DNA of 64,000 nucleotides from Ruminococcus flavefaciens MA2007 (GTDB lineage: Bacteria; Bacillota; Clostridia; Oscillospirales; Ruminococcaceae), in NCBI RefSeq assembly GCF_000621845.1, contig NZ_JHXF01000007.1, forward strand, positions 124,001 through 188,000. The letters are read 5' to 3'. A program made the position numbers and the translations under genes. Every line of letters starts with the position of its first letter. Position 1 is the stretch's first letter. The notes under the pieces were generated by a model. It saw nothing but the letters and a program-made list of their open reading frames with translations. It was not told the origin of the DNA and searched no databases. Shown piece after piece: positions 55,001 to 64,000 of this stretch.

Positions 55001-55045
55001 GCCGATGTGATGGAATTGGCAGACGTGACGGACTCAAAATCCTAT
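55001..55045 (+). pseudogene. truncated tRNA-Leu (5' half through the anticodon stem)
   Basis: Begins GCCGATGTGATGGAATTGGC, the acceptor and D-arm of tRNA-Leu, and runs to GGA-CTCAAAA-TCC, a CAA anticodon loop with a 3-bp stem remnant. The variable arm, T-arm and 3' acceptor strand are absent. It is not a simple copy of the intact gene at 55403 because the anticodon stem differs (GGA/TCC against TTGA/TCAA). Confidence 0.75.
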
Positions 55046-55360
55046 CAGCATTTTTTCAGGATTTGAGTACCGATTGTTTTTCAGCATCGCTCAAACGGCT
55101 TATCTACGAGGTTATCTGATAGCTTTGGTAGAACGGACTTGTTCGTGTTTCCGTTTTTTCTACCATTTTTCTACCGATTTTTCGTGGTTCGTTTACAAAT
55201 TGACGTTTGATTCAAAATCCTCTTGCCATTTTTGACGGTTTTGAATTTCAACTGATTTTAACATCGCTCTAACGGCTTAACCACGAAGAAATTTGGAGAT
55301 TGTGGTAGAAAGAACTTGTTCGGTTCTTTTTTATTCTACCTTATTTCTACCGAAATATCA
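55031..55360 (+). repeat. two tandem attachment-site-like units
   Basis: Unit 1 starts at GACTCAAAATCC (55031) and unit 2 at GATTCAAAATCC (55209). Both contain an inverted repeat of the core (unit 1 ACTCAAAATCCT with AGGATTTGAGT; unit 2 ATTCAAAA with TTTTGAAT), then CATCGCTC-AACGGCTTA-CCACGA-like sequence, then GGTAGAA...ACTTGTTCG...TTCTACC. A third core, GACTCAAAATC, is in the intact tRNA at 55433. The units look like decayed tyrosine-recombinase attachment regions. Confidence 0.6.
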
Positions 55361-55402
55361 GTTTCCTTGAAAACTGTCTTTCTGATAAAAAAATCAATAT
55401 GT

Positions 55403-55485
55403 GCCGATGTGGTGGAATTGGCAGACACGCTTGACTCAAAATCAAGTACGAAAGTGTGCGGGTTCGAGTCCCGCCATCGGCACCA
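55403..55485 (+). tRNA. tRNA-Leu (anticodon CAA)
   Basis: Complete: acceptor GCCGATG / CATCGGC, D-arm with GGTGGAATTGGCAGAC, anticodon stem CTTGA / TCAAG with loop CTCAAAA (anticodon CAA), long variable arm, T-arm GCGGGTTCGAGTCCCGC, and encoded A-CCA at the end (55482-55485). No good promoter lies directly upstream; transcription may come from the one at 54955. Confidence 0.95.
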
Positions 55486-55531: not shown

Positions 55532-58288
55532 TTATGCGTTCTCATCATTGCTTGTCGGCGTGTTACTCTTTGCTTTACCGCTTGCTTCTTCCGTATCGGG
55601 ATTGCAGGCACCGAGAGCCTGAGCGATAGCATCAGCCGAGGACAGCTTTGAATTGAACTCTAGATGACTGTAAAAATCAGCAGTTACCTGGAATGTGGAA
55701 TGACCTAACCACTCCTGAATTGCTTTCATAACTTCGTTATCTTTGTTAGTATGTGCTTCAGGGACAATTTCGTTGATAAATGCGGTTCTATATTCGTTTA
55801 CGCTAAGAAGATACAATTCGTTTTTGGCTCTTGTGATTGCAACGTAAAACAAACGACGTTCTTCCTCATAGTTATCAATCCGTTCCTGTTCTTTTGCGGT
55901 TTCTCTGTCTGAGTGAGGTAAACTACCGTCATAGGCATCAACTATATAGACAATATCGAATTCTAAACCCTTCGCAGAATGAATAGTGGAAAGAATGACC
56001 GGATTTTCTGCTGAACAGTGATAGTTCTCAATAAGTTTCGGCAATAGCTCCAAGTGTTCAAGAAAACCTGTAATTGTTTTTTCCTGTACAGCTAAAGAGT
56101 ATAGGATATCGCATTTACCTATGTCGAGCTCTTTTTCTCTTGCATAGTCACGATACCAATAATTACAGATCATATCAATTGCATCTTGTGGAGCGGAAGC
56201 AGCAATCCTCTTCATTTTTTCCTTAAAATCCAATGCTTTTTGCTCTAATGACCGCCACTTTGACAGTTGATTAATCAGTTCATCGGAAATGGAAATGCCT
56301 TTTTGGAGCGATTTTGTACAGCTCCAATTTGCAGCTCGCTGGTTGAAACCATAGCCGCACTTATAGTAGATCTGCTTAAAAGCATCTGCGTCATTAGGAT
56401 TGATAGCGAATCTTAGAAAATATACAATATCCTGAACAACTTTGCAGGTAAAAAAGTTTTCACCTGCATCTTTCAGGCGTTGAAATGGGATATTTTTTCG
56501 TAAAAAGAGATCCATAAGAGGAATGGCATTTGCATTGTTCCGGTAGAGTATTGCCATTTGACCATGATCTTGCATGGATGCTTCTGCAACAGTAGAATAC
56601 TGCTCATGTTTCTTCATGACATTAATACGTTTTATCGGCTTACCGTCTCCTCGGCTTGATCTCATATATTTCTCAGAATGACGGTTAATATTATGACTAA
56701 TAAAACTCTGAGCAGCTGAAACTATTTGCTTTGTTGAACGGTAATTTGTTTCAAGAAACAGAACATACGGATTAATATATATATCCGCAAAACTCAAAAG
56801 TGCCTGTGGATAAGCTGCACGGAAACGATAAATGCTTTGATCTTCATCACCAACCATAAAAACATTATTCCGCTTTGAAGCTAACAATCTGACTATTTCA
56901 TGTTGAATTTTAGATGTATCCTGTGCTTCATCAACACAAATGTACTGGTATTTATCCTGAAATTCACAAAGAAGGTCAGTTTTTTTTTCAAGGAAAATCT
57001 TAGCGAAGCGTAGTTGATCGTCATAATCCATACGTTGATTTGATTTCAAAGCATCTTCATATTTGTTATAGAAATTCTCATAGATGGAGTCTTCGGGCAG
57101 ATACTCCTCTCTTAATTCAGGAGTTGTCAGCATCATGTTTTTTATATAACTGATTTTGGTTTGTGCTTCGATAATATCAGCTTCGTGTGGAAATTTATCG
57201 CCAGTTATGCTTGTGTAGATTGATTTGATAATTGCACATTGTTCATTTTCATTAAGCAGTTTATAGCGATTTGGTCTATTATACTTTTGAACATATCTTG
57301 TGATGATCTGTTCGCATAAAGAGTTGATAGTGCGTATATTAAGACGATCGGCTATGTTTTTATCGAACTTTTGAGCAAAGCGCTGTTTAATATCATTTGT
57401 TGCGCTTTTAGTATAAGTTATAGCAAGAATATTCTCGGGAGCAATACCTTTACAATAAATCATATATCCCATTCTTGCAACCATAACAGTAGTTTTTCCA
57501 CTACCTGGTACTGCAATCATAAGATTTGCTCCACTCACAGCCTGGACAGCTCGTTGTTGCTGAAGATTAAGAACAATATTATACTTTTCAGAAAAACGTT
57601 GATATTCCTCATCTATATTAGTGTCTATGTGCAGCGGTGGAAGACATCTTCCGTCAGTCAGACCGATATAAGATAAGAAGGCTTCTTTTGTAAATCTTTG
57701 TTTGATTTGAAAGAAGCCTTCATAGAATTCATGTATTTGCAATATACATTCATTATCATCAGATATTTGAAAGAAAAGGTCTATTGCTCCGGCACGAAGG
57801 TTGTATTTTCTGAAAGTAGATCTTGGTTTGCTCCAAGAAAAGATATTATTGTTCTTTTCCTTTAATTGTCCGCTTTCATAGTCTTCGCGCATATCATAAA
57901 GCCAGACAACTTTGTATCCAATATTATTATGATAGAAGACATTTCTGTCATTAAACTTTCCGGCGGATAAGGGACTATGCTGAAACTCAGCGACTGTTCT
58001 GTCCACAAGCACGTCTGCTCTGTGCCGAATATCGTCCCATTGAACAACTACTTCCTGGTTATCAGCCGGAAATCTATTCTGCCATTCATAGTGCCATTCA
58101 GACATATCATATTGACCATTCCAGCCATCATTGCATTCACACTTAGGATAGTGAGAAAAATGACGTGCTCTTTCAGTTCCGGCTTTTACAAACAGTCTCT
58201 CAAGACAAATTGGGCAGAAGAATGTATCGCCCTGAACAGCGTCATTGATAGATATTCTCTTTTGTTCTTTATCAAATGCAATATACAT
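55532..58288 (-). CDS. CoiA-like nuclease + UvrD helicase fused to an integrase C-terminal tail
   Basis: A 918-residue three-part protein. Residues 1 to about 165 resemble CoiA competence proteins: CPICLE (zinc cysteines), RHFSHYPKCEC, EWHYEWQNRFP, and a nuclease-like core HRADV (Asp92) with EFQ (Glu101-x-Gln103). Residues about 235-850 are a superfamily-1 UvrD/PcrA helicase: PGSGKTT (261-267), VDEAQDTSKIQ, VGDEDQSIYRFR, ETNYRSTKQI, STIHSAKGLEFD, FYVAITRAKNELYLL. Residues about 853-918 match the end of a tyrosine recombinase: EWLGHSTFQVTADFYSHLE with the catalytic Tyr at 873. The CoiA-helicase pairing may be functional; the tail looks like a deletion junction. GGAGGG ribosome site; 18 bp after the AraC-like gene. 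Confidence 0.8.
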   Translation of the reverse strand: MYIAFDKEQKRISINDAVQGDTFFCPICLERLFVKAGTERARHFSHYPKCECNDGWNGQYDMSEWHYEWQNRFPADNQEVVVQWDDIRHRADVLVDRTVAEFQHSPLSAGKFNDRNVFYHNNIGYKVVWLYDMREDYESGQLKEKNNNIFSWSKPRSTFRKYNLRAGAIDLFFQISDDNECILQIHEFYEGFFQIKQRFTKEAFLSYIGLTDGRCLPPLHIDTNIDEEYQRFSEKYNIVLNLQQQRAVQAVSGANLMIAVPGSGKTTVMVARMGYMIYCKGIAPENILAITYTKSATNDIKQRFAQKFDKNIADRLNIRTINSLCEQIITRYVQKYNRPNRYKLLNENEQCAIIKSIYTSITGDKFPHEADIIEAQTKISYIKNMMLTTPELREEYLPEDSIYENFYNKYEDALKSNQRMDYDDQLRFAKIFLEKKTDLLCEFQDKYQYICVDEAQDTSKIQHEIVRLLASKRNNVFMVGDEDQSIYRFRAAYPQALLSFADIYINPYVLFLETNYRSTKQIVSAAQSFISHNINRHSEKYMRSSRGDGKPIKRINVMKKHEQYSTVAEASMQDHGQMAILYRNNANAIPLMDLFLRKNIPFQRLKDAGENFFTCKVVQDIVYFLRFAINPNDADAFKQIYYKCGYGFNQRAANWSCTKSLQKGISISDELINQLSKWRSLEQKALDFKEKMKRIAASAPQDAIDMICNYWYRDYAREKELDIGKCDILYSLAVQEKTITGFLEHLELLPKLIENYHCSAENPVILSTIHSAKGLEFDIVYIVDAYDGSLPHSDRETAKEQERIDNYEEERRLFYVAITRAKNELYLLSVNEYRTAFINEIVPEAHTNKDNEVMKAIQEWLGHSTFQVTADFYSHLEFNSKLSSADAIAQALGACNPDTEEASGKAKSNTPTSNDENA

Positions 58289-59167: not shown

Positions 59168-59223
59168 AGTACTGAGTACCTCCTTTATTTGATGTCTTTA
59201 TTGTATCAAAAATTATCATATTA

Positions 59224-59257
59224 GTCTTGACATCTGAGTTGCAATAGATGTCAAGAC
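59224..59257. promoter_or_regulatory. 12-bp inverted repeat, candidate AraC-like operator
   Basis: GTCTTGACATCT - 10 nt - AGATGTCAAGAC, perfect arms, 57 bp upstream of the AraC-like start codon. There is no U-run, so it is not a terminator on either strand. The minus-strand arm contains TTGACA. Confidence 0.6.
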
Positions 59258-59421: not shown

Positions 59422-59763
59422 TCAGCAGATTTCTTTAAGTCGTGTAAGGACTATTTTGAACCAGTCGATGTAATCATCAAGATTATATATCATAATCCAG
59501 TGTGTTAGGGAGCGCCATTGTGAGAAAAGCATAGAACCAAGTATGGCAGGATTATTTATATTATTAATAACCCTTTCAAGTTCTTCAGTTTTCCATGTTG
59601 CATCTGTTGCGTCAGGAAAGGCATCACGGAAACTATTAAATAGATCCATCTTGAAAGACATTTTTTCACAGTCATCGCCAAAGTCATTTTCAAAATCAAA
59701 TACTTTGTCGCTATCAAATAGAAAAAGCCATTTGTCACAGAATGAAATAATATCGTTATGCAT
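59422..59763 (-). CDS. small hypothetical protein of the island
   Basis: A 113-residue acidic protein without membrane segments or motifs I recognise. It has an acidic N-terminus (FLFDSDKVFDFENDFGDDCEK) and a Trp-rich C-terminus (SQWRSLTHWIMIYNLDDYIDWFKIVL). AGGAG lies 6 bp before the ATG. It lies 62 bp downstream of drmC and 5' of the terminator, so it is probably the last gene of the drm operon. Possibly an accessory or immunity protein (speculation). Confidence 0.55.
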   Translation of the reverse strand: MHNDIISFCDKWLFLFDSDKVFDFENDFGDDCEKMSFKMDLFNSFRDAFPDATDATWKTEELERVINNINNPAILGSMLFSQWRSLTHWIMIYNLDDYIDWFKIVLTRLKEIC

Positions 59764-59825: not shown

Positions 59826-60488
59826 TCAGAGCTGAACAAATACTTTTGAAAAAATAAGCTTTGTAAAAATATCATCTATCTGCTTAGCAACGCTCTTGGA
59901 TTCGATTTTTGTACCAAGCTCTATATTGCCTTGCTGACCATGATAAGACAGATTTGCTGAAGTAATTAATGTAGATTGACCGTCAACAGATAATACCTTA
60001 GCGTGTAATGCTGACATCTTATCATCATCAACAGGTTTATAATTGTAAATATTTAAGAATCGACTCTTATAACGCAAAATCTTATCGAATTCTTGCTGAC
60101 TTTCAATATCATTGACGAAGAACTTAACAAAAATACCGCGCTGGCTTTTATTTATTATCACATCAACTAAATCGGAAAAATAGGAGGAGAGTGAATATCC
60201 TGTAATAAGAATATTTCTTTCTGCACTATTGATCATTGAATTAACAACGCTCATGGTTGTTCTTGCGTTAATTGCAAAAGAAGGCGGTGCAGTAGCGACG
60301 ATTGACACTTTATCTGTGTCATTAGAAGCAATAGCTTCAGTTATCAACTCTGCTATATCCTCACATTTTTGATGAGATAGCTCAGGGTAATTCCTTTTTA
60401 GTAATTCCACAGAATTTGATGTACCGTTTGAATAATCGCTTTTTATCGTATTGATTAGGATCTCTTTATTTATATCTCTACCTGGCAT
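59826..60488 (-). CDS. drmC: DrmC, PLD-family nuclease of DISARM
   Basis: A 220-residue phospholipase-D-fold protein with one HKD-like motif: ALHAKVLSVDG (His162, Lys164, Asp169) continuing TLITSANLSYHGQQGNIELG. PLD nucleases dimerise to build an active site. It overlaps the drmB end by 19 bp. The size and the A-B-C order behind a helicase and a DUF1998 protein match DrmC of DISARM. Confidence 0.8.
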   Translation of the reverse strand: MPGRDINKEILINTIKSDYSNGTSNSVELLKRNYPELSHQKCEDIAELITEAIASNDTDKVSIVATAPPSFAINARTTMSVVNSMINSAERNILITGYSLSSYFSDLVDVIINKSQRGIFVKFFVNDIESQQEFDKILRYKSRFLNIYNYKPVDDDKMSALHAKVLSVDGQSTLITSANLSYHGQQGNIELGTKIESKSVAKQIDDIFTKLIFSKVFVQL

Positions 60489-62233
60489 AGTTCATTCACC
60501 AATTCTTTAAAGTATGAGGTTTCTTCTCGTCCCGGAACGGGTACAACGAGTCCTCTGTCAAGCATCCTATTTCCGTTTTCACAGGCAGTTTCAGATATCA
60601 TACAGCAAGAATGACAAGCAGCACCGTTAGAATTCTTTCCAGCAGGAAGTGTATTCATACATTCAGGATCATTGGTACAAACAAGAGCTTCCTGGAAAGC
60701 ATCTTTCATGAGTCTTGTCATCTGATCGATAGTACCTAATTCAACTAAACCGCCAAGCGAACCTTCTTTGTCAGCACTGCCTGTATACAGCAATACTCCC
60801 GACATCTTTTCGCTAAAATATATTCGTTCTCTTATAGCTGAAGATGAATAACCTGATGACATGGACATTTGCTTTATCAAAAGATGAGCAAATGTATGCA
60901 TGAGAACATAGACAGCATTACGCATAACTGAAATTGTCCAGCCCTTTGATTCGCAGAAATCTCTGTACGAATCTGAATACTTCTTTGATATAGATTTTAC
61001 AGCTTCAGAACTCATCCATTTTTCAATCTGCTCTTTCTTAAACTCAATGAAGATGCCTTCGCCATTAACTTCTGCAGCGGGAAGCCAGCGCTCTGGACCG
61101 CTTCCTTTGCTAAGTGCAACGATATTAGGCTGATTATCAGCATCCGGATCAGGCGCATCTACTCTTGTAAAACCGAGAAGAACTCTTACTTCTCTAAGCC
61201 TTGTTACTCGTATTATTCTTTCAAAGTATTTTTTTAGATATTGAGGCAATGGATCTTCCTCAGCTTTAAAATGCTTTTTATTAGATTCATAGGCAGGATC
61301 ATCATGGTGAGTAATGGCGTTATACTCCATCTGCTTGATTTCAGTGAATTCTTTAATGTTATTAAGACGGTTATGCAATGCTTCTTTGTATTCATCAAAT
61401 GAATATGCAGAAAAATATTTTTTGTATGCTGTTAAAATCCCAAGTTCTTCACCTAACACGGTTTCATCCATTAACAGTTCAATATCATGAAGATGATCAT
61501 CGATTAAATTGTATAGTGGATTGATCCATGGAGGAATTGATATTGCACTTTTGGTAACAGCAAAATACACGTTTGATGCACCACGCTGCGAAGGGATAAC
61601 CTGTTTATTACAGTGATCTCCTTTATGCAAAGGACGAAATGGATGCCGTCCCTGACAACTCAATTCTTCAAAATTATCACGCTGTGTAGCTCCGCTCATA
61701 TTACGTTTATCTCCGCAGGAGCACTCAACCCACATATCCGCAAGTGTAGATGTATTTCCTATGGAATACATCTTTAATTCGCCATTACATTGTTTATTTC
61801 CATGATGAACCCACCATTTCCACGGGAAATCATGCATATGTCCATTTTCGCATATGGTAATAAATCGTGATGGGTAAGCTGGACGATGACATTTAGGGCA
61901 ACTGACTCCATATATTAAGTATTTATCTAAATCGAAATTCTTCCTTGCATCAAAAAGATGACCACACATAATGTTGGAGCAAACATGATAATACGGAAAA
62001 GTTACTACAGGTATATCACATTTACCACTTGTTCGTGGCATATAAAAACAATTGACACGTAAATATGAAGCCAGTCTTCCATCAATTATTCTTTGTCCTT
62101 TTTCTTTCCAGTATGGAAGATCAAGTATAGTGACTGAATCTTTAACTGCATCGACAATAGCGCCTGGACCGAAAGTTGTTATAATTTGATTGGGACGCAG
62201 TTCGCCAAGTTTGTTATTATTATACTCAGACAT
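60470..62233 (-). CDS. drmB: DrmB, DUF1998 protein of DISARM
   Basis: A 587-residue protein. LRPNQIITTFGPGAIVDAVKDSVTILD is the conserved DrmB opening; cysteine pairs in SNIMCGHLFD, SCPKCHRPAYP, ICENGHMHDFPW and ECSCGDKRN form zinc sites; the C-terminal DUF1998 domain has VLMHTFAHLLIKQMSMSSGYSSSAIRERIY, GLVELG and CHSCCMISETACENGNRMLDRG. ATG 62233 (MSEYNNN) follows GGAGGAATAAA and starts 1 bp after the drmA stop. DrmB forms the DISARM complex with DrmA. Confidence 0.9.
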   Translation of the reverse strand: MSEYNNNKLGELRPNQIITTFGPGAIVDAVKDSVTILDLPYWKEKGQRIIDGRLASYLRVNCFYMPRTSGKCDIPVVTFPYYHVCSNIMCGHLFDARKNFDLDKYLIYGVSCPKCHRPAYPSRFITICENGHMHDFPWKWWVHHGNKQCNGELKMYSIGNTSTLADMWVECSCGDKRNMSGATQRDNFEELSCQGRHPFRPLHKGDHCNKQVIPSQRGASNVYFAVTKSAISIPPWINPLYNLIDDHLHDIELLMDETVLGEELGILTAYKKYFSAYSFDEYKEALHNRLNNIKEFTEIKQMEYNAITHHDDPAYESNKKHFKAEEDPLPQYLKKYFERIIRVTRLREVRVLLGFTRVDAPDPDADNQPNIVALSKGSGPERWLPAAEVNGEGIFIEFKKEQIEKWMSSEAVKSISKKYSDSYRDFCESKGWTISVMRNAVYVLMHTFAHLLIKQMSMSSGYSSSAIRERIYFSEKMSGVLLYTGSADKEGSLGGLVELGTIDQMTRLMKDAFQEALVCTNDPECMNTLPAGKNSNGAACHSCCMISETACENGNRMLDRGLVVPVPGREETSYFKELVNELCQVEI

Positions 62234-62234
62234 T

Positions 62235-64000
62235 TTATTCCTCCGTGTAATAGTACATATTCGCTGTACTTTCAACTTCACGCATAGACCTTAGTGTAGG
62301 CTTTTCGGTTTCGATATGTGGCTGATCATAGGAATTCATTAACCTATTATAGTGTTTAGTATCAACGACAAAGTATCGCACCTTCTTAATCTGAGAAGCC
62401 TGTAGCTTCCACCAATCAATGAACTGATCAATTTCATTTTCGGCATCTATTTTAGCTGATGGTTTAATGATATTAAGTCGATCAATAATAAGTTTTTTCA
62501 CTGATACAAGTTGATCGTCAGTCATTGAAGTGATTAAAGAAGCAGCTGCGTTTTCAGCCATTTCAGGATAGTTCAACCTAATAGCTGATATTATAAGTGC
62601 GTGCATAACTCTGTCTCTTGCTCTTGCAGAGAATGGAGTTGCTGTAGTTCCTTCTACGAACCTGTAAAGTTGTGAATGATACCCAGTGAAATTTTCATAA
62701 TGAGATAAGTCACGAGGACGGTAAGCATTATAAAGAGTAACCACTAAACCAGGAAAAGCTCTTCCTATTCGGCTCGTTGCCTGAATATATTCAGAATTCT
62801 GTTTAGGCTGACCAGTTACAACCATTAATCCGAGTCTGTCAACATCCATACCTACAGCTATCATATTAGTAGCAATAGCTGTATCAAGGCAATCTCTTGA
62901 TTGATAGTTTATTTCGAGCTGATTTAGTTTCTCAGGAATCTTATAAGAAGCCATACGAGATGTAATTTCAACGTTATGGAAAAGGTTGCGATAGCTGTCG
63001 AAATCATACTTCTTTTTTATTCTTTTTATTCTCTTCGGAATGTCGTCTTGAAGCAATCTAACAGCACCGCCAAGCTCACGTATACTGTTAAAATAGCCCA
63101 CTAACGTATAATAAGGATCAATTACATCTTTAAATTCATCTTGACAAGAGTAATTATGTGCTGCCTGAAGAATGATAGAATAAACTCTCAGTAATGCAGT
63201 TTTTACAGATTGTCCTGGAGCACATATGCCAACATATTTACGGAACGGATCTTTTTCGACAGGTATTTCTTTTATAAAGAAGCTATCGCCAATTTCAAAA
63301 CCACTTGGAGGAAACTGCGTTGTATGTTGTCTTGCATACAAGCATTTAGCCTGGGCTTCAGCGTTTTTGATTGTCGCCGTAGAAACCACATATTTAGGTT
63401 TTATTCCGTCATATGTACACATATCTTCAATTATAGTCTCATAAGCTCCATAAACTGTGCCAAGAGGTCCAGTGATTAAGTGAAGCTCATCCTGAATGAT
63501 TAATTCAGGCGGCAAAAACTGTTTAACCGGAGATAAAGTAGAAGCTGCTAATGAATCAGTTTTATTATGTCTCTGAGGATGGTCTTCACCTATAGCAACA
63601 TATCCATCTCTGCTGCATTTACGGTCAACACGTCCAAAAAGAGCATTTGTTCTTACTTCCCATGGTAAATTTGCAAATTTATCAACTGTTGATAGAATTA
63701 TGGTAGGGCATTTAGCGTATATTTCTTCGTCAACTAAATATACAGGTAATGCAATTCTATCATCTTTATACCTATAGAATTGACAATTCATATTTGAACA
63801 GTGAATCTCTATAGATTTTTTTTCAATATCTATATTGAAGTTTTCTTCGTTTAAAGGTTTTCCACAGAAAGGACAATTGAGAAGCTGCTTATAAACAAGA
63901 TTTCTTGCTTTCTTTGCGTTATATGGCTTATCTGGATTATCTTTGAATTCTTCAAATTTGTTAGGAGTTACGCCTCCTCCAACCCAAAAACCGATACTAA
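62235..64000 (-). CDS. drmA: DrmA, helicase of DISARM (partial)
   Basis: Superfamily-2-like helicase; the frame is open to the right edge, so the N-terminal part is missing and about 588 residues are visible. A zinc ribbon, CPFCGKPL ... HCSNMNCQF, is followed by TIILSTVDKFANLPWE, the Walker-B-like LIIQDELHLITGPLG, YVVSTATIKNAEAQ, and motifs V-VI in AVGMDVDRLGLMVVTGQP and IQATSRIGRAFPGLVVT. DrmA recognises phage DNA with DrmB. It has a tight 1-bp junction with drmB. A methyltransferase and drmD or drmE, if present, would lie beyond 64000. Confidence 0.88.
   Translation of the reverse strand, partial: SIGFWVGGGVTPNKFEEFKDNPDKPYNAKKARNLVYKQLLNCPFCGKPLNEENFNIDIEKKSIEIHCSNMNCQFYRYKDDRIALPVYLVDEEIYAKCPTIILSTVDKFANLPWEVRTNALFGRVDRKCSRDGYVAIGEDHPQRHNKTDSLAASTLSPVKQFLPPELIIQDELHLITGPLGTVYGAYETIIEDMCTYDGIKPKYVVSTATIKNAEAQAKCLYARQHTTQFPPSGFEIGDSFFIKEIPVEKDPFRKYVGICAPGQSVKTALLRVYSIILQAAHNYSCQDEFKDVIDPYYTLVGYFNSIRELGGAVRLLQDDIPKRIKRIKKKYDFDSYRNLFHNVEITSRMASYKIPEKLNQLEINYQSRDCLDTAIATNMIAVGMDVDRLGLMVVTGQPKQNSEYIQATSRIGRAFPGLVVTLYNAYRPRDLSHYENFTGYHSQLYRFVEGTTATPFSARARDRVMHALIISAIRLNYPEMAENAAASLITSMTDDQLVSVKKLIIDRLNIIKPSAKIDAENEIDQFIDWWKLQASQIKKVRYFVVDTKHYNRLMNSYDQPHIETEKPTLRSMREVESTANMYYYTEE

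Follow-up and report, generated by a model that had tools for sequence, protein, structure and literature searches.

What would a CoiA-like nuclease domain joined to a UvrD helicase be doing beside a DISARM (defense island system associated with restriction-modification) gene cluster? The question is raised by an open reading frame (ORF) in Ruminococcus flavefaciens MA2007, located in a stretch of 64,000 nucleotides that we call the window (assembly GCF_000621845.1, contig NZ_JHXF01000007.1, positions 124,001 to 188,000). Plain coordinates below are those of the window, and labels such as L031 are our own. An earlier note, made from the sequence alone, had described this ORF as a CoiA-like nuclease joined to a UvrD helicase and had proposed that, with an AraC-like gene next to drmABC, it is either an accessory of DISARM or a separate anti-phage or anti-plasmid system. 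We find that CoiA-UvrD is a real and rare fusion of a CoiA_N zinc ribbon, a CoiA nuclease and a UvrD/PcrA-type helicase. We favor, with a probability of roughly 0.55, the reading that it is a helicase-nuclease which, in its best-represented subfamily, would form a small defense module with the AraC-like gene.

Each part of the fusion is recognized by Pfam above its cut-off (Table 1). The helicase region comprises UvrD-helicase (aa 240-502, 213.5 bits) and UvrD_C (154.1 bits), and its superfamily 1 (SF1) motifs I-VI are complete, with Walker A (GSGKT) at aa 262-266, Walker B (VDEAQD) at aa 452-457 and motifs III-VI present. The N-terminal residues that had been named as the zinc cysteines and the nuclease core of CoiA are all there: CPIC at 25, RHFSH at 42, HRADV at 89 and EFQHS at 101. 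Across 14 aligned CoiA-type domains, C25, C28, H43, H46 and C52, which probably bind zinc, are invariant in all 14, as are E79, D92, E101 and Q103, the predicted catalytic residues; E79 lies just ahead of the Pfam CoiA_nuc match. The E101-X-Q103 arrangement fits the PD-EXQ site that PMC1189080 assigns to CoiA and compares with that of BglII. The fusion is not a product of chance, since the same architecture stays open in other genomes over 668 codons (in a copy cut by a contig end) to 985 codons.

The expectation that the N-terminal domain would model as a PD-(D/E)xK nuclease was borne out weakly. An AlphaFold2 model of aa 1-238 reached a predicted local distance difference test score (pLDDT) of 83.4 and a predicted template modeling score (pTM) of 0.82. 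Foldseek returned no match for this model in the PDB at E <= 0.001, while the best 13 rows from a second structural aligner had Z scores of 5.0-5.9, all below the Z of 8 that the tool advises. We take these 13 rows to be PD-(D/E)XK nucleases, among them BglII, BamHI, McrC, SfsA and Bax1. Their alignments span mainly aa 55-216 and barely cover the zinc ribbon. The modeled domain is thereby consistent with, but only weakly indicative of, a likeness in fold to PD-(D/E)XK nucleases. A CoiA profile searched against PDB sequences gave four rows, the best at E 2.1, which we took as chance. An AlphaFold2 model of a full-length 942-aa relative (pLDDT 49.2, pTM 0.35) was not used.

CoiA-UvrD fusions were found at seven loci in Ruminococcus and other Clostridia. 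These are the island that R. flavefaciens 007c has in common with the window, a paralogue on another contig (C11) of the window genome, R. callidus ATCC 27760 (L051), metagenome-assembled genomes (MAGs) of a rabbit Ruminococcus (L052), from roe deer (L053) and from goat (L054), and genome G1021, where the fusion occupies a 3.1-kb contig with flanks too short to read; the shared island and the R. callidus, rabbit and goat loci were each counted once. Matches to the N-terminal domain, some of which are not fusions, occur in 7 of 297 genomes of the family and in 5 of 100 of the genus. CoiA_nuc matched in 9 of 391 genomes of the class, and the N-terminal profile in 14 of 398 genomes of the phylum. 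A search of genome contigs gave ten loci, of which five are fusions, four encode standalone proteins and one is interrupted by the end of its contig. For a tree of CoiA domains we first set aside some loci that duplicated others, and of the 44 rows found we removed 10 as duplicates or fragments. Among the remaining 34 domains, a branch with support of 79/61 separates the 8 fused rows from the 26 standalone ones. A single origin of the fusion is neither shown nor rejected by this tree, in which an AraC-linked subclade of five rows has support of 100/100. The full-length query found nothing in viral contigs, and in the phage and plasmid collections no record reaches 80% coverage of it at a single place; the top phage record (H1, 39%) has the helicase but no recognized CoiA domain. 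The N-terminal profile matched five viral loci, all of them standalone CoiA-like proteins. In the open-access literature searched, no paper contains both "CoiA" and "UvrD" as whole words, which does not prove that none exists.

A search of PDB sequences places the motor nearest to PcrA, Rep and UvrD. Two of these, UvrD and PcrA, are helicases of DNA repair, and CoiA takes its name from competence in Streptococcus pneumoniae, which together would suit a host protein of DNA repair or competence. Yet CoiA-UvrD scores far under the NCBIfam equivalog cut-offs (PcrA 338.7 vs 911.2 bits, UvrD 247 vs 1144.45 bits, Rep 294.9 vs 951.45 bits), its N-terminal domain is sporadic in the family and genus as counted above, and the gene sits in the low-GC DNA of an integrated element, so that we regard a host function of this kind as extremely improbable. 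Nor is the protein one of several better known enzymes built from similar parts. AddA and RecB likewise carry an SF1 motor and a PD-(D/E)XK nuclease in one chain, but with the nuclease at the C-terminus and with a need for a partner, AddB or RecC; their models reach 127.9 bits (cut-off 707.65) and 110.1 bits (cut-off 696.05). GajB of the Gabija system has the UvrD-type helicase core in common with CoiA-UvrD, and GajB models are its best PADLOC matches. GajB, however, acts with GajA and is not known to have a fused nuclease, and GajA was not among the matches listed for the scanned neighbors of the window gene. NERD-UvrD proteins place an N-terminal restriction-endonuclease-like domain on a UvrD helicase, that domain being of the NERD family and not CoiA. 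CoiA competence proteins (PF06054; PMC1189080) share CoiA_N and the PD-EXQ nuclease domain. In the 26 standalone rows that we compared, which are 215 to 549 aa long apart from one that the end of its contig shortens to 152 aa, there is no helicase.

The case for a two-gene module begins with the AraC-like gene, which in a subfamily of about 70% identity is tightly linked to CoiA-UvrD. The distance from the end of this gene to the fusion is 18 nt in the window and in 007c, 20 nt in the rabbit locus, 25 nt in the roe deer locus and 21 nt in R. callidus. In R. callidus only the C-terminal part of the AraC-like gene is left; the rabbit and roe deer loci keep the partner. The C-terminal domain of the regulator matches in 6 of 297 family genomes, with three strong matches, each beside CoiA-UvrD, and three weak ones (E 2e-5 to 7e-4).

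Upstream of the AraC-like gene we found a putative promoter and operator (Table 1) that in the window, rabbit and roe deer loci conforms to TTGACWTCT-N-TGTCAAGACT-N-TGATAYAATARAGACATCAAATAAAGGAGGTACTCARYACT. Among these three loci the 30 nt adjoining the AraC ATG are 93-100% conserved, compared with only 59-68% identity of the regulators themselves. The rabbit and roe deer loci have the inverted repeat in imperfect form only, and operator half-sites with one mismatch also occur elsewhere, for example at 60711-60723 inside drmB. The operator core, allowing one mismatch at most, was found in 4 of 125 genus genomes (the window genome, 007c, the rabbit MAG and a further genome, G304) and once in each, and the single core in the window genome stands before the AraC-like gene. 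The promoter pattern had no match in viral contigs. Our footprint rests on conservation because a consensus promoter scan was uninformative (18 found vs 19.4 expected) and was not used as evidence. The combination of a good -10 with a poor -35 that is overlapped by the repeat suggests a promoter that may be activated and autoregulated.

The second line of evidence is the company that the fusion keeps. The anticipated association with defense genes in other genomes holds for some: recognized defense genes stand beside the fusion at four of the six loci with readable flanks. The neighbors in the window and 007c are DrmMII, DrmD, type III-like mod and res, DrmA, DrmB and DrmC, with a second DrmA/DrmB pair further on. 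The C11 paralogue has macrodomain, KptA, Schlafen-AlbA, AAA, McrBC and DUF1883-TIR proteins around it (six scanned), and the rabbit fusion has an Eco57I-type methylase, a BsuBI/PstI endonuclease, Schlafen, NYN and AraC proteins (six scanned, one without a family). At the roe deer locus we found an N6/N4 methylase, ResIII, a UvrD protein with PD-(D/E)XK, DUF4238 and AraC (five scanned), a context of type III-like mod/res restriction-modification (R-M). As a rough check, the 3.39-Mb window genome holds two copies of McrBC, one of them about 3 kb from the C11 paralogue, and two copies of DrmB, both in the window island. With these copy numbers, both adjacencies arising by chance seem unlikely.

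Several observations weigh against a defense module. The neighborhood count comprises six loci and no formal background test. No defense gene was recognized among the neighbors examined in R. callidus (two downstream proteins scanned, neither with a family) or in the goat MAG (two scanned, others by eye), and no AraC gene lies beside the two more distant fusions with readable flanks, those of C11 and goat. Pairing is also not absolute, as G304 carries the promoter and 219 regulator residues, 98% identical, without CoiA-UvrD. The copy in the window is itself truncated, and the empty Foldseek search counts on the same side. Finally, the goat fusion has a Tn916-type integrase upstream and a RecD2-type helicase 27 nt downstream (L054:10001-14740), an arrangement that also fits DNA maintenance of a mobile element.

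This last point leads to a different explanation, in which CoiA-UvrD serves a mobile element by processing or protecting the element's DNA in transfer, replication or repair, and would stand next to defense genes because elements of this sort bear both. Outside the rabbit and roe deer loci, signs of mobility were seen in three readable contexts: a tRNA-Leu attachment site in the window island together with a relaxase in 007c, the goat integrase and RecD2 just described, and transposase-like ORFs seen by eye on the R. callidus contig. The gene nevertheless adjoins R-M, DISARM or McrBC genes and not relaxase or replication genes, about 12 kb separate it from the relaxase in 007c, and the pair has its own regulator and promoter. 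We judge service to a mobile element to be unlikely.

The window gene lies beside drmABC, an adjacency that Pfam, NCBIfam and PADLOC confirm along with the AraC-like regulator. CoiA-UvrD could instead be a component of DISARM in this island, acting as a nuclease for DrmAB. The neighboring locus holds drmA, drmB, drmC and a DNA methyltransferase, the set that defines DISARM, with PADLOC calling DrmMII, DrmD, DrmA, DrmB and DrmC. CoiA-UvrD follows drmC on the same strand in two genomes. According to PMC12458937, ARMADA, which is also based on a YprA helicase, needs ArmD, a UvrD helicase with an N-terminal nuclease-like domain, and a DISARM role keeps some appeal in that DrmC is reported to be apparently non-essential (PMC9142583). 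Against this, drmABC is present at one of the six fusion loci with readable flanks, the island common to the window and 007c (the others having been partly scanned or inspected by eye), and a gap of 254 nt with a conserved promoter of its own separates the pair from the upstream genes. The lone operator core of the window genome points the same way. One island only would support DISARM and the pair has its own conserved promoter; we therefore favor a self-regulated two-gene module over a DISARM subunit, which we think very unlikely. CoiA-UvrD is a neighbor of DISARM and not a core subunit, so that of the two options in the earlier note the separate system is preferred to the accessory.

The comparison with ArmD deserves attention in its own right. 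Like CoiA-UvrD, ArmD combines a GajB-like UvrD helicase with an N-terminal nuclease-type domain and belongs with a YprA-family helicase system, and mutation of its Walker A motif abolishes protection (PMC12458937). However, the N-terminus of ArmD is RelE-like whereas that of CoiA-UvrD is CoiA, and ArmD is essential in a four-gene system whereas CoiA-UvrD occurs beside several different systems. With a CoiA N-terminus and DISARM genes as neighbors in place of the ArmA, B and C set, CoiA-UvrD is not an ArmD. The regulator copy in G304 adjoins a DrmD/BrxH-like SNF2 helicase, a type IIG-like methylase, a GmrSD-N protein, a UvrD-type protein and a protein of 2102 aa that matches DruE helicases over its first 345 residues. 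This gene set resembles the ARMADA system described in PMC12458937. A RelE-like start of the G304 UvrD protein was seen by eye only; Pfam made no such call. We also observed that this regulator copy (L105/L106, G304 C11:98000-125999) stops at residue 219, where the region of a MobL relaxase gene overlaps it, and that it is divergent from the ARMADA-like cluster.

Features of the DISARM locus itself may be recorded here. The locus (62235-63998 and L007:8236-19827) is a mixed set in which DrmMII, DrmD and type III-like mod and res occur together, and the two islands, otherwise nearly identical, differ in their mod gene (565 vs 507 aa). The second DrmA/DrmB pair lies in the same island beyond the window (L008:108-10308, C5), precedes genes for a UvrD-type helicase, an Hsp70-like and an unknown protein, and is possibly another YprA-type defense system with a chaperone; the same gene set is also found in 007c.

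We turn now to the C-terminus of the window protein. The island recurs at the same tRNA-Leu in R. flavefaciens 007c (G364; NZ_ATAX01000022.1), where 8.3 kb are 99.7% identical and CoiA-UvrD is intact, with 985 aa (L031:14548-17505). The window gene differs from the 007c gene by one base up to coding nt 2560 (window 55728/55729), past which it departs, reading 'MKAIQEWLGHSTFQVTADFYSHL...'. Over 40 aa, the resulting tail (aa 854-918) shares 73% identity with the C-terminal end of a 454-aa integrase of 007c (L036:7924-9288), which adjoins tRNA-Leu(CAA) and is matched by Pfam Phage_integrase. With another integrase, this one from the window genome, the tail shares 58% identity over 40 aa. Pfam did not recognize an integrase in the tail alone. 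The tail keeps the tyrosine of FYSH and is without the HDLRH part, leaving the R-H-R plus Y set incomplete; we presume both to be tyrosine recombinase motifs, and HDLRH precedes the junction in the 007c integrase. The window protein has thus lost 132 of its own C-terminal residues and gained 65 integrase residues. The description of the whole 918-aa ORF as one protein accordingly holds for aa 1-853, and the integrase remnant in aa 854-918 had been missed. That these residues are a third domain of the protein is ruled out by the 73% integrase identity, the breakpoint relative to 007c and the adjoining tRNA site.

Both genomes share the chromosomal flank, with an EAL-type gene, aroB, aroA and aroC (by eye). 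In 007c the breakpoint is separated by about 22 kb from the matching position in the integrase, and this stretch holds a relaxase, ParA/ParB-like genes (by eye) and a non-specific endonuclease. We searched the window island with 25 queries, namely the integrase and 24 ORFs of the 007c stretch (with L036 excluded from 3 kb up to the integrase), and the sole match at E <= 0.001 was that of the integrase query to the fused ORF itself. The window genome has seven Phage_integrase matches, none of them on the window contig (C5). The far end of the island is marked by 52 bp that copy the 3' half of the 007c tRNA-Leu with 98% identity, at about 219743-219794 of C5 and 40.3 kb from the tRNA-Leu. The G+C content is ~0.35-0.40 inside the island, 0.42-0.46 over its last ~6 kb and 0.48 beyond. 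Judged from sequence, the window copy is a truncated chimera on an element without an integrase of its own. A simple deletion in a 007c-like element was rejected as the whole story: the tail is 73% identical as opposed to 99.7% for the rest, which suggests that the integrase end came from another element, probably a different one at the same tRNA site. The junction at 55728/55729 may also be a chimeric assembly, but it is situated within a 284-kb contig and beside a tRNA, where an integrase end is expected.

Ahead of the intact tRNA-Leu, window positions 55001-55402 contain the tRNA-Leu 5'-half copy and two related 31-nt repeats, the half copy being likely the scar of an earlier integration. 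Similar half copies also stand beside the 007c tRNA-Leu, so that this tRNA seems to have been used for integration more than once, with the crossover close to the anticodon loop.

The truncation raises the concern that the window ORF is a decaying, functionless fragment, a truncated gene joined to integrase scraps, which would be compatible with any of the other readings. The exchange of 132 residues for 65 is what such decay could look like, and both the integrase and the intervening 007c stretch are missing from the window island. On the other hand, the 853 remaining codons differ from 007c by a single base and keep every helicase and nuclease motif, so that decay, if any, is recent, and the lost part is by eye the most variable among the relatives. 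We consider decay somewhat unlikely; the window copy may be inactive or altered, with its catalytic core intact. Beyond about aa 850 the C-terminus varies by subfamily: it is CxxC...CxxC zinc-ribbon-like in 007c (L050:10001-12958; by eye), four others (L051, L052, L053, L009) have another C-terminal domain that by eye resembles the Tudor-like end of PcrA, and the goat copy has no such domain (by eye).

Table 1. Features of the CoiA-UvrD locus and adjoining genes, in window coordinates.
Feature	Position	Strand	Basis or remark
Second copy of tRNA-Leu 5' half	55001..55041	+	85% over 41 nt
tRNA-Leu(CAA), attachment site, start of island	55403..55485	+	52-bp 3'-half copy at island far end
CoiA-UvrD ORF	55532-58288	-	918 aa; only aa 1-853 own CoiA-UvrD protein
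Tyrosine integrase C-terminus remnant, fused in frame, aa 854-918	55532..55728	-	Protein identity to integrases
CoiA-UvrD nuclease-helicase, aa 1-853, C-terminally truncated	55729..58288	-	Pfam; match to R. flavefaciens 007c L031:14548-17505
UvrD/PcrA-type SF1 helicase, aa 240-829	55802..57571	-	Pfam, PDB sequence search, motifs
CoiA_nuc, predicted PD-EXQ nuclease, aa 84-189	57722..58039	-	Pfam PF06054, 32.0 bits vs cut-off 20.3
CoiA_N zinc-ribbon-like domain, aa 10-53	58130..58261	-	Pfam PF25164, 42.4 bits vs cut-off 26.3
AraC/SoxS-like helix-turn-helix regulator, 286 aa	58307..59167	-	Pfam; 18 nt upstream of CoiA-UvrD
Putative promoter/operator footprint of AraC/CoiA-UvrD operon	59179..59255	-	Conserved in window, L052, L053
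Ribosome-binding site AAAGGAGG	59179-59186	-	
-10-like GATACAAT	59200-59207	-	
Inverted repeat	59226-59235 / 59246-59255		Perfect 10 bp in window
113-aa ORF without family, between drmC and AraC gene	59422..59763	-	
drmC, phospholipase D (PLD)-like nuclease of DISARM	59826..60488	-	PADLOC DrmC E 1.7e-100; NCBIfam DrmC 114.6 bits, under cut-off 133
drmB	60470..62281	-	NCBIfam DrmB_fam 595.9 bits, cut-off 240
drmA, 3' part of a gene for 1106 aa, continuing beyond the window	62235..63998	-	Family models

Taken together, the domains, the linked regulator and the neighborhoods suggest an anti-phage or anti-plasmid function for the pair. In the mechanism that we propose, the regulator would sense infection or DNA stress and activate its own operon, the motor would load on single-stranded or end-exposed foreign DNA, such as that of a replicating phage or an incoming plasmid, and the CoiA domain would cut this DNA as the motor unwinds it. 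In PMC9519451, the features given for 21 experimentally confirmed E. coli defense systems include a CoiA domain. More tentatively, and short of even odds in our estimation, the AraC-like gene and CoiA-UvrD could constitute an undescribed inducible two-gene defense system in which a CoiA nuclease of competence type, joined to a PcrA-like motor, destroys incoming phage or plasmid DNA. Its companions in defense islands would be systems built on YprA helicases, DISARM in the window and an ARMADA-like set in G304.

The chimeric gene in the window is a warning that an ORF in a defense island can be a recombination product, here with the last 65 residues coming from an integrase. The fusion of CoiA to a PcrA-like motor among defense genes suggests a DNase action on DNA that is being unwound, which CoiA-UvrD makes testable in a single-chain enzyme. 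If our reading is true, the module would be a self-regulated nuclease-helicase that travels as cargo with DISARM.

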